DNA from: Selenomonadaceae bacterium
GTDB lineage: Bacteria > Bacillota > Negativicutes > Selenomonadales > Selenomonadaceae
Direction of reading: 5' to 3'
NCBI GenBank assembly: GCA_017635875.1
Contig: JAGBKP010000176.1
Location: 1-45,667 of the forward strand
DNA: 45,667 bases
Shown here: positions 948-45,102 of the stretch, piece by piece
Layout of the letters: the number at the start of each line of letters is the position of its first letter
How positions within the stretch are numbered: position 1 is the stretch's first letter
Translations under genes and position numbers: made by a program
The notes under the pieces: model-generated
What the model saw: the letters and a program-made list of their open reading frames with translations, nothing else
Told to the model about the DNA's origin: nothing
Database searches by the model: none

Positions 948-1030
948 TTACTTTCTTTTTCTCTTTCTTTTTTGAAAAAAAGAAAAGAGAAAAAGAAAGT
1001 AACAAAGAAAAAGAGAAAAGAAAAAACTTT
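948..1030 (+). repeat. Three-arm purine/pyrimidine repeat A1 (Y-R1-R2)
   Basis: Directly after flgI. Pyrimidine arm 948-973, purine arm R1 975-1002 nearly complementary to it (one-base indel), a single C, then purine arm R2 1004-1030. R2 is the mirror image of R1 around the junction GTAAC; the mirrored core is AAAGAAAAAGAGAAAAG. It ends in ACTTT. It could act as a hairpin terminator for flgI, but the third arm is not explained by that. Confidence 0.8.
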
Positions 1031-1088
1031 ATCAAACTAAAATTTTAAAGTTAATCATTACATTTTTCTTTTTATTTTTATATTAAAA

Positions 1089-1147
1089 TTCTTTTTCTTT
1101 CTTTTGGTACTTTTCTTTCTTTCAAGAAAAAGAAAGAAAAGTACGGT
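1089..1147 (-). repeat. Three-arm purine/pyrimidine repeat A2, opposite orientation to A1
   Basis: Read on the minus strand it shows pyrimidine arm, purine arm and second purine arm with the junction GTACC. The inverted arms share 16 bp (AAAGAAAGAAAAGTAC), and the third arm AAAAGAAAGAAAAAG mirrors R1. With A1 it forms a tail-to-tail pair separated by about 58 AT-rich bases, all within the flgI-flgJ gap. Confidence 0.7.
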
Positions 1148-1611: not shown

Positions 1612-1702
1612 CTACTTTCTTTTCTTTCTCTCTCTTTTTTGAAAAAAAGAGAGAGAAAGAAAAGAAAGTAGCAAAGAAAAGAAAGAGAGAGAAAAAACTT
1701 TA
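1612..1702 (+). repeat. Three-arm purine/pyrimidine repeat A3
   Basis: Starts 14 bases after the flgJ-like stop. The pyrimidine arm CTACTTTCTTTTCTTTC... pairs with purine arm R1 ending GAAAGTAG. After a C the third arm AAAGAAAAGAAAGAGAGAG is an exact mirror of R1 over about 25 bases. The arm sequence differs from A1, yet all three arms differ together. Confidence 0.85.
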
Positions 1703-27330: not shown

Positions 27331-27408
27331 CTACTTTCTTTTTCTCTCTTTTTTTATAAAAAAAGAGAGAAAAAGAAAGTAGCAAAGAAAAAGAGAGAAA
27401 AAAATTTT
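27331..27408 (+). repeat. Three-arm purine/pyrimidine repeat A5
   Basis: Upstream of glgA. Pyrimidine arm CTACTTTCTTTTTCTCTC..., loop ATA, purine arm ending GAAAGTAG, C, then AAAGAAAAAGAGAGAAAA, a perfect 21-base mirror of R1. Confidence 0.85.
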
Positions 27409-27419
27409 ATCAGTTTTTA

Positions 27420-27505
27420 ATAACACAGGGCTTCGCCCCGTACCCCACAAGGGACTCCGTCCCTTGACCCTGCAAGGGGAACTCATCCCCCTTGACCCCC
27501 ATTTT
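27420..27505. repeat. GC-rich hairpin chain H4 (three hairpins)
   Basis: TAACACAG, GGGcttcgCCC, CAAGGGACtccGTCCCTTG, CAAGGGGaactcatCCCCCTTG, ACCCCC. The middle stem is a variant of the usual CAAGGGG stem, changed on both sides. Directly adjacent to repeat A5. Confidence 0.8.
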
Positions 27506-27584
27506 TATTTTCTATTTGTAATATACAAAAAATTACGAAAATTTGAGTTTTAAATATTTCCCCGCCAAAAGGCGGGGAAATATC

Positions 27585-31270: not shown

Positions 31271-31354
31271 GTACTTTTCTTTCTTTTTCTTGAATACCCA
31301 AAGGGCACAGGCGAAAAAGTAAAGAAAAGTACCAAAAGAAAGAAAAAGAACTTT
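31271..31354 (+). repeat. Three-arm purine/pyrimidine repeat A6
   Basis: Pyrimidine arm GTACTTTTCTTTCTTTTTC, loop with AAAGGGCACAGGC, purine arm ending AAAGAAAAGTAC, C, then AAAAGAAAGAAAAAG mirrored. One T interrupts R1. Forms a tail-to-tail pair with A7 in the glgC-glgD gap. Confidence 0.75.
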
Positions 31355-31403
31355 AATATTAAAATTAAGAGATATATAGTAAATATTTCAATTTAGTTTT
31401 AAT

Positions 31404-31492
31404 AAAGTTTTCTTTCTCTCTTTTCTTTTTTGTTACTTTTTTCTTTTCTTCTCTTTCTTTTTCAAGAGAAAGAGAGAAAAGAAAAAAGTAAA
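31404..31492 (-). repeat. Three-arm purine/pyrimidine repeat A7
   Basis: On the minus strand: pyrimidine arm starting TTACTTTTTTCTTTTC, purine arm ending AAAAAAGTAAC, and third arm AAAAAAGAAAAGAGAGAAAG ending CTTTA. One-base indel between mirrored arms. Confidence 0.75.
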
Positions 31493-35429: not shown

Positions 35430-35534
35430 TTACTTTCTTTTTCTCTTTTCTTTTTTGCCTGTCCTCCCTTGCGGAGGGAAAAAAAGAAAAAAAAAAGAAA
35501 GTAACAAAGAAAAAAGAGAAAAGAAAAAACTTTA
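35430..35534 (+). repeat. Three-arm purine/pyrimidine repeat A8 with hairpin loop
   Basis: Pyrimidine arm, loop GCCTGTCCTCCCTTGCGGAG with its own stem CCTCC/GGAGG, purine arm ending GAAAGTAAC, mirrored third arm AAAGAAAAAAGAGAAAAG. R1 has lost some G residues relative to R2. Confidence 0.8.
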
Positions 35535-36245: not shown

Positions 36246-36351
36246 TTACTTTCTTTTTCTCTTTTCTTTTTTGCCTGTCCTCCCTTGCGGAGGGAAAAAA
36301 AGAAAAGAGAAAAAGAAAGTAACAAAGAAAAAGAGAAAAGAAAAAACTTTA
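36246..36351 (+). repeat. Three-arm purine/pyrimidine repeat A9 with hairpin loop
   Basis: The most regular copy: pyrimidine arm exactly complementary to R1 (about 27 bp), loop identical to A8, then C and R2, an exact 23-base mirror (AAAGAAAAAGAGAAAAG core). Confidence 0.88.
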
Positions 36352-44897: not shown

Positions 44898-44983
44898 TAA
44901 CACAGGGACTCTGTCCCTGTACCCTGCAAGGGGCTTTGCCCCTTGACCCCAGCAGGGAGCATTGCCCCCTGCACCCCATTTTT
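44898..44983. repeat. GC-rich hairpin chain H6
   Basis: TAACACAG, GGGACtctGTCCC, TGTACCCTG, CAAGGGGCtttGCCCCTTG, ACCCCAG, CAGGGagcattgCCCCCTG. The first stem differs from H1-H4 on both sides. Confidence 0.85.
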
Positions 44984-45001
44984 AATATATTTTTTTTATA
45001 A

Positions 45002-45102
45002 TAAAGTTTTTTCTCTTTCTTTTTCTTTGCTACTTTCTTTTTCTTTCTCTTTTTTTCCCCGCAAGCGGGACAGGCAAAAAAGAGAAAGAAAAAGAAAGTA
45101 GG
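45002..45102 (-). repeat. Three-arm purine/pyrimidine repeat A10 with hairpin loop
   Basis: Minus orientation. Pyrimidine arm, loop GCCTGTCCCGCttGCGGG, purine arm ending GAAAGTAGC, mirrored third arm AAAGAAAAAGAAAGAG. The loop is the A8/A9 loop with its stem replaced (CCCGC/GCGGG for CCTCC/GGAGG). Confidence 0.88.

Follow-up and report, generated by a model that had tools for sequence, protein, structure and literature searches.

The repeat unit at positions 36246-36351 of the window (the whole stretch of 45,667 nucleotides that was analysed) is built from a pyrimidine arm Y and two purine arms, R1 and R2. As judged from comparison of its many copies, what is conserved in each such unit is the ability of one strand to make a hairpin, a matched third arm and a pairing between the hairpin loop and the tail. 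The combination of hairpin, loop-tail pairing and full-length R2 is well supported as an H-type pseudoknot with a candidate third strand, and this fold goes beyond the triplex alone that an earlier note on this DNA had proposed. Both the structure and the selection acting on it are well supported, and from them we infer a function.

Architecture of the unit and its copies in the window

The unit lies on the forward strand and starts with a left foot, TTAC (36246..36249), whose partner is the GTAA of the junction. It is followed by the 23-nt arm Y (36250..36272), the hairpin loop (36273..36295), the arm R1 (36296..36318), which is the reverse complement of Y, the junction GTAAC (36319..36323), the arm R2 (36324..36346), a candidate third strand that mirrors R1 exactly, and the tail CTTTA (36347..36351). 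The first loop base, G, pairs with the first tail base, C, and these two positions covary. Across the 23 triplets there are 0 mirror and 0 Watson-Crick mismatches.

The six copies that the earlier note had placed at 948, 1612, 27331, 31404, 36246 and 45002 are all real, four of them perfect and two with small lesions. The three other perfect A-type copies share the CTAC/GTAGC foot and junction: 1612..1702 (forward strand, 25-nt arms), 27331..27409 (forward, with loop AT and tail TTTTA) and 45002..45101 (reverse, with 22-nt arms and a GC hairpin in the loop). The A-type copy at 948..1031 (forward) separates flgI from the gene for a rod-binding protein; it has lost 1 nt of Y and stands tail-to-tail with a B-type partner at 1084..1144 (reverse), which has a GTACC junction and the arm AAAAGAAAGAAAAAGAA. 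Similarly, the A-type copy at 31403..31491 (reverse; TTAC/GTAAC, 24-nt arms), in which R1 carries an additional base and Y a single mismatch, is tail-to-tail with a B-type partner at 31271..31355 (forward; GTACC), whose R1 is degraded. These two B-type units, 1084-1144 and 31271-31355, and a decayed A-type copy at 35430-35534 (forward), in which the match to R2 is lost in both R1 and Y, are three units of the window beyond the six cited.

A small GC hairpin, CCTGTCC...GGAGGGA, enlarges some of the loops (36273-36295, 35458-35476 and 45056-45075), and its orientation varies by copy. GC-rich hairpin runs, GGGGCTTCGCCCC-like and AAGGGACTCCGTCCCTT-like, adjoin triplex units at 27430-27520 and 44940-44990.

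Covariation of the arms and of the loop-tail pair

The genome of the window, a rumen Selenomonadaceae MAG of 2.39 Mb, contains 228 (116+112) matches to the junction pattern RRRRRRRRRAAAGTARCAAARRRRRRRRR and 0 matches to the reversed pattern used as a control; the same pattern occurs 118 times in RGIG9261 (G001) and 50 times in RGIG6591 (G002), two rumen MAGs of the same genus. Detailed scans covered 1.69 Mb of three same-genus genomes, each from a different species (G000, G001 and G002). In these, purine mirror repeats collected without an assumed junction carried the Y arm in 314 of 319 cases, and purine hairpins collected without an assumed R2 carried the mirror arm in 314 of 344, which bears out the three-arm design described in the earlier note. 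The same note would have given this design up if other copies kept the hairpin and lost the mirror arm at the neutral rate; the 314 mirrors retained by 344 hairpins do not refute it. A hairpin-only repeat was ruled out as well, since a full R2 is missing from just 30 of the 344 hairpins, several of them visibly decayed.

The spacer between R1 and R2 is 5 nt long, save for a handful of irregular cases, and mostly reads G[TA]A[ACG]C. The arms themselves are diverse, with 72 R2 sequences and 53 distinct, exactly mirrored arm sequences of at least 17 nt. Over 108 distinct pairs, the mirror identity of R1 and R2 is 0.950, as compared with 0.708 +/- 0.010 (maximum 0.743 in 2000 shuffles) when R2 is shuffled among elements. 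Perfect matching in Y, R1 and R2 was observed in 218 of 304 elements, and 17 of 22 previously unseen copies from other loci are perfect mirrors. The triplex stereochemistry predicted earlier for both strands is likewise supported, as a base-for-base match. Reading R2 as a direct repeat of R1 was rejected (identity 0.65, against 0.950 as a mirror). Chance or low complexity was also rejected: the reversed pattern has no match, and among 65 loci of viral contigs that match the junction pattern, taken as a specificity control, the hairpin is present in 0.

Two further pairings accompany the arms. Of 289 elements, 274 have a foot that is Watson-Crick complementary to bases 1-4 of the junction, with six main pair types (feet TTAC, CTAC, CTTC, GTAC, GTTC and TTTC). 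The loop is mostly two bases long in the genus of the window, and its first base and the first base after R2 form G:C in 213, A:T in 54 and other combinations in 13 of 280 elements. At #166 and #171, two orthologous sites, both partners of this loop-tail pair have switched together. Units of other lineages combine shorter arms (9-16 nt) with longer loops, and there the loop is antiparallel-complementary to the bases directly 3' of R2. The resulting helix averages 3.71 bp over 38 distinct loop/tail pairs, as compared with 2.39 +/- 0.17 after shuffling (maximum 2.92 of 5000), and reaches 4 bp in 20 of the 38, where 5.0 would be expected. Examples are TCGCCC/GGGCGA, GCGCAC/GTGCGC, ACGCCC/GGGCGT and GGTCC/GGACC in other Selenomonadaceae, CTCGT/ACGAG, CCCGC/GCGGG and GTTG/CAAC in Oscillospiraceae, and, in Proteobacteria, GTGGCC/GGCCAC (Aeromonas), TGCCC/GGGCA (Pseudoalteromonas), TCGCC/GGCGA (Pasteurella) and GCCGC/GCGGC (Paraburkholderia). 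The helix is absent from one Burkholderia copy and from some others.

Two interleaved Watson-Crick helices, the hairpin stem and the loop-tail helix, are therefore present; the second is a single covarying pair in the genus of the window and has 3-6 pairs in other genera, Oscillospiraceae and Proteobacteria. Its length varies with that of the arms: 1 bp goes with arms of 17-28 nt and up to 4-6 bp with arms of 9-11 nt. G.U is not favoured among the mismatches of either strand, so that the choice of an RNA strand by G.U wobble was rejected for want of asymmetry.

Distribution and evolution

A looser pattern finds matches in 52 of 351 Negativicutes genomes. A second Selenomonadaceae genus has up to 122 copies, and its arms, among the matches listed, are genome-specific and mirrored. 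Oscillospiraceae MAGs hold 8-83 copies and one Nitrospirota MAG 33, with 0-1 control matches, and Paraburkholderia chromids have at least 40 pattern matches. In other phyla the pattern matches are scattered and mostly lack the hairpin. Expansions and arm sequences are specific to lineages, and in many genomes all copies fall into a small number of arm types. Since the same design recurs in distant bacteria and its arms change together, it seems to be a structure under selection and not a collection of ordinary hairpins.

Several local arrangements were observed outside the genus. In Oscillospiraceae, the triplex unit lies close to the outer boundary of a repeat of 200-350 bp (L250:1852-3019, L198:5276-6719 and the G356 and G352 contigs), and these repeats often form inverted pairs 0.6-1.3 kb apart around non-coding DNA or one gene, for instance the GNAT-like ORF enclosed by the pair at L198:5276-6719. 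In Pseudoalteromonas (L382:668-787 and L381:500-611), matches to the Rfam TwoAYGGAY RNA, one of them above the gathering score, are found near the unit. In Burkholderia, the sRNA Bp1_684 abuts it.

Orthologous sites allow the arms to be followed through time. Between G001 and G002, six orthologous elements with the same arms differ at 2 of 515 element sites, as compared with 214 of 1775 flank sites (12%). At other orthologous sites (#256 and #166), the arms differ, all three still match one another and the immediate flanks are unchanged. The earlier observation that the arms differ together thus holds at the level of single loci, where Y, R1 and R2 change at once. In comparisons with the more distant G000, foot and junction have changed together and several elements are flipped; indeed, orthologous sites are often occupied by a different whole element, sometimes flipped. 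Since the loci examined were picked for containing elements, the frequency of site sharing is not interpretable. Empty sites exist in a sister species, where the flanking genes abut (#97/98), and presence or absence is at the size of the composite. Because matched third arms arise repeatedly and DNA copying cannot produce a mirror of R1, selection for third-strand pairing of the arms is well supported by these comparisons; once complete, units may also be spread in part by gene conversion or re-insertion.

The gapped comparison of 304 elements shows that, in imperfect ones, the odd arm is R1 in 43, Y in 17 and R2 in 12, with 11 mixed cases. An apparent near-absence of odd R2 arms (R1:Y:R2 of 81:41:5) was dropped, since indels had shifted the frame in that count. 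Many of the R1 lesions are transversions to T, and none of the models considered explains the R1 excess. A stretch of about 1.8 kb is 100% identical in G000 L049 and G001 L129:12214-12458 and flanks, in genomes otherwise about 75% alike, which suggests recent transfer or cross-binning.

Known relatives and possible roles

The earlier note was mistaken in holding that no bacterial repeat family of this design had been described. The class II intrastrand triplex repeats of Holder et al. 2015, formerly BoxC or PIT and also called TMECO, have the same Y-R1-spacer-R2 order and A and B types, and they are intergenic repeats of E. coli and other Proteobacteria (PMC4666352). They form triplexes in vitro by CD and NMR, DMS protection in vivo was absent, and neither pseudoknots nor covariation are mentioned (PMC4666352). 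The class II order, with a pyrimidine arm, a purine arm and a mirrored purine arm on one strand, is that of the units studied here, which resemble BoxC/PIT/TMECO also in their short spacer, intergenic location, A/B subtypes combined in inverted pairs and a complementary strand that can make the pyrimidine motif; an E. coli BoxC pair that we examined is tail to tail, as are the units here. On the other hand, BoxC has 9-nt G/C-rich arms, a 3-nt second loop and a nearly constant sequence, whereas the genus of the window has A-rich, highly variable arms of 17-28 nt, a G[TA]A[ACG]C junction with a paired foot and a loop that pairs with the tail. The BoxC/TMECO consensus is CCCTCNCCC-N3-6-GGGNGAGGG-N3-GGGNGAGGG, and the published search (ITxF) is limited to stems of 6-15 nt and loops of 1-6 nt (PMC4666352). 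All 72 R2 sequences of the genus are A-rich and without GGG, and its arms, as well as some loops of at least 20 nt, exceed the ITxF limits, within which the 9-14 nt arms of other lineages fall. The units are therefore distinct from BoxC, though of the same kind of design. No Rfam family matches above the gathering score over the element, and searches for its sequence strings in the open-access literature returned nothing relevant; subscription journals may contain an earlier description.

Other comparisons are partial. Triple-helix RNAs include SAM-II, preQ1-II and the PAN ENE as well as the telomerase RNA pseudoknot. The order of the pyrimidine strand would be that of the last of these, H-type and with the major groove of the second stem occupied by a U-rich loop, but the candidate third strand here matches the whole stem and belongs to a dispersed repeat. 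REP/BIME elements are likewise dispersed intergenic hairpins, in inverted pairs and between operon genes, but REP has no third arm, and BIMEs go with RAYT (Y1) transposases, which were not found in G000-G003. H-DNA mirror repeats share the homopurine mirror R1-junction-R2, unlike the Y arm in the same strand and the loop-tail pairing, both features of the units here.

The genomic context was assessed in the three same-genus genomes. Outside ORFs lie 280 of 315 units. Co-directional gaps account for 207 of 243 scored element gaps (85%), as compared with 70% of all gaps, and divergent gaps for 14 of 243 (6%) as compared with 18%. Tail-to-tail pairs number 62, their junctions 91-136 bp apart, and head-to-head pairs 0; each combines an A-type unit with, mostly, a B-type unit, so that A and B types occur in inverted pairs as in BoxC/TMECO. 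Among single A units, the sense strand is the pyrimidine strand in 70 cases and the purine strand in 36 (p=0.0012, a bias noticed post hoc in one of four subclasses tested), the pairs show no orientation bias relative to genes, and Burkholderia and Pasteurella single copies have the opposite orientation to the single A units of the genus.

Since the spacers are probably transcribed, single units tend to have the pyrimidine strand as sense strand and a pair provides it on either strand, we favour, tentatively, an RNA pseudoknot with a third strand, acting as an intercistronic stability element that spreads as a BIME-like repeat; this reading is plausible, if short of probable. The relevant fold would form on the complementary, pyrimidine strand, tail'-Y2-G-TTAC-Y1-loop'-R-GTAA, with Y2 occupying the Y1:R major groove through U.A-U and C+.G-C triplets, in the layout of the telomerase RNA pseudoknot. 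We infer this topology from the order of the segments, and the parallel pyrimidine copy is compatible with a major-groove U.A-U third strand. In RNA read from the spacers inside an operon, such a tight knot could block 3'-5' exonucleases or ribosomes and so determine how stable adjacent genes are relative to each other, as BIME/REP do; a tail-to-tail A+B pair would give either transcribed strand one pyrimidine-strand knot, and the units would multiply and exchange as non-autonomous repeats. Against this stand the post hoc nature of the orientation bias, the opposite orientation of the Burkholderia and Pasteurella single copies and the lack of a G.U preference. In addition, R1 is the arm most often broken (43, as compared with 17 for Y and 12 for R2), which neither triplex model predicts, and earlier work summarised in PMC4666352 detected neither promoter nor terminator activity of E. 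coli PIT, the precedent studied most closely, nor any influence on RNA polymerase. With some reserve, it is possible that there is a cross-phylum class of triple-helix H-type pseudoknots, up to hundreds per genome, that fold in intergenic RNA, control the fate of operon mRNAs and have three strands co-evolving base by base; it would span Negativicutes, Oscillospiraceae, Nitrospirota, Beta- and Gammaproteobacteria.

The main rival to a role in RNA is a role in DNA as the foldable ends of a small mobile composite. The purine strand Y-R1-R2 would fold as a single-stranded purine-motif triplex, like BoxC/TMECO, and mark the end of a composite, namely a tail-to-tail pair with its feet outward, copied by an enzyme; the arms would be kept since only foldable copies get copied. 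The exclusively tail-to-tail pairs with their narrow spacing, the presence or absence of whole composites between species, the lineage-specific expansions and arms and the inverted pairs of Oscillospiraceae repeats all fit this scheme, as do the G-rich arms of Oscillospiraceae and BoxC, which suit the purine motif, and the triplexes formed in vitro by TMECO oligonucleotides (PMC4666352). However, A-rich arms are poor for purine triplexes, the strong conservation in place is unexpected if selection acts at copying alone, and no Y1 transposase (PF01797) was found in the four element-bearing genomes G000-G003 (completeness 79-91%). The DNA role appears rather unlikely. RAYT/IS200 mobilisation, hinted at by TTAC/GTAG, was rejected on the same absence of PF01797 from G000-G003; the transposase is present in 6 of 6 element-free relatives tested.

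It is improbable that the units are homologous copies kept identical by gene conversion or re-insertion alone, with a fold of no current function. The small number of arm types among the copies of many genomes and the replacement or flipping of whole elements at orthologous sites are what such exchange would leave, but conversion spreads arm sets and cannot create more than 50 different, exactly mirrored ones, a mirror image of R1 being beyond the reach of any copying reaction. Extrusion of R1-junction-R2 as double-stranded H-DNA under supercoiling, blocking forks and affecting replication, recombination or local instability, seems quite improbable: R1-GTARC-R2 is a perfect homopurine mirror repeat and E. 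coli TMECO sites are more rearranged (PMC4666352), yet H-DNA has no need of the Y arm found in nearly all mirror repeats and leaves the loop-tail and foot-junction pairings unexplained. Ordinary intrinsic terminators or hairpins beside unrelated purine tracts are very hard to credit. Both strands do have strong hairpins (z about -5 to -8), but on the purine strand the A/T-rich stem is followed by GTARC and purines and not by a U-run, convergent gaps are not enriched (22 of 243 with elements, 74 of 584 overall), and the third arm covaries, so that the shuffle test already refutes this explanation for that arm.

Evidence for natural triplexes in bacteria has so far come from a nearly invariant repeat, BoxC, whose conservation is ambiguous. 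More than 50 arm sets with a matched third strand, together with loop-tail covariation across phyla, provide comparative evidence for a third strand, similar in kind to that by which the helices of tRNA and rRNA were established, and the cellular relevance of intrastrand triplexes becomes directly testable by compensatory three-arm mutants.

Other palindromes occur around the units. A second dispersed palindrome, TGACTCCCCGCCCCGAAGGGGCGGGGAGTCA, is found in G001 and G002 (for instance at L138:534-753 and L106:9203-9307); its ends resemble GGGCATCTCTAAAAAC, and GGGCATCTCTAAAAAC-like ends border some triplex composites in G000 as well. In L232 and L243, the palindrome CGCTTAGTGCTTTAGCACTTAGCG lies to the left of R1 and seems, in some units, to interrupt the Y and R1 arms or to take the place of part of them.
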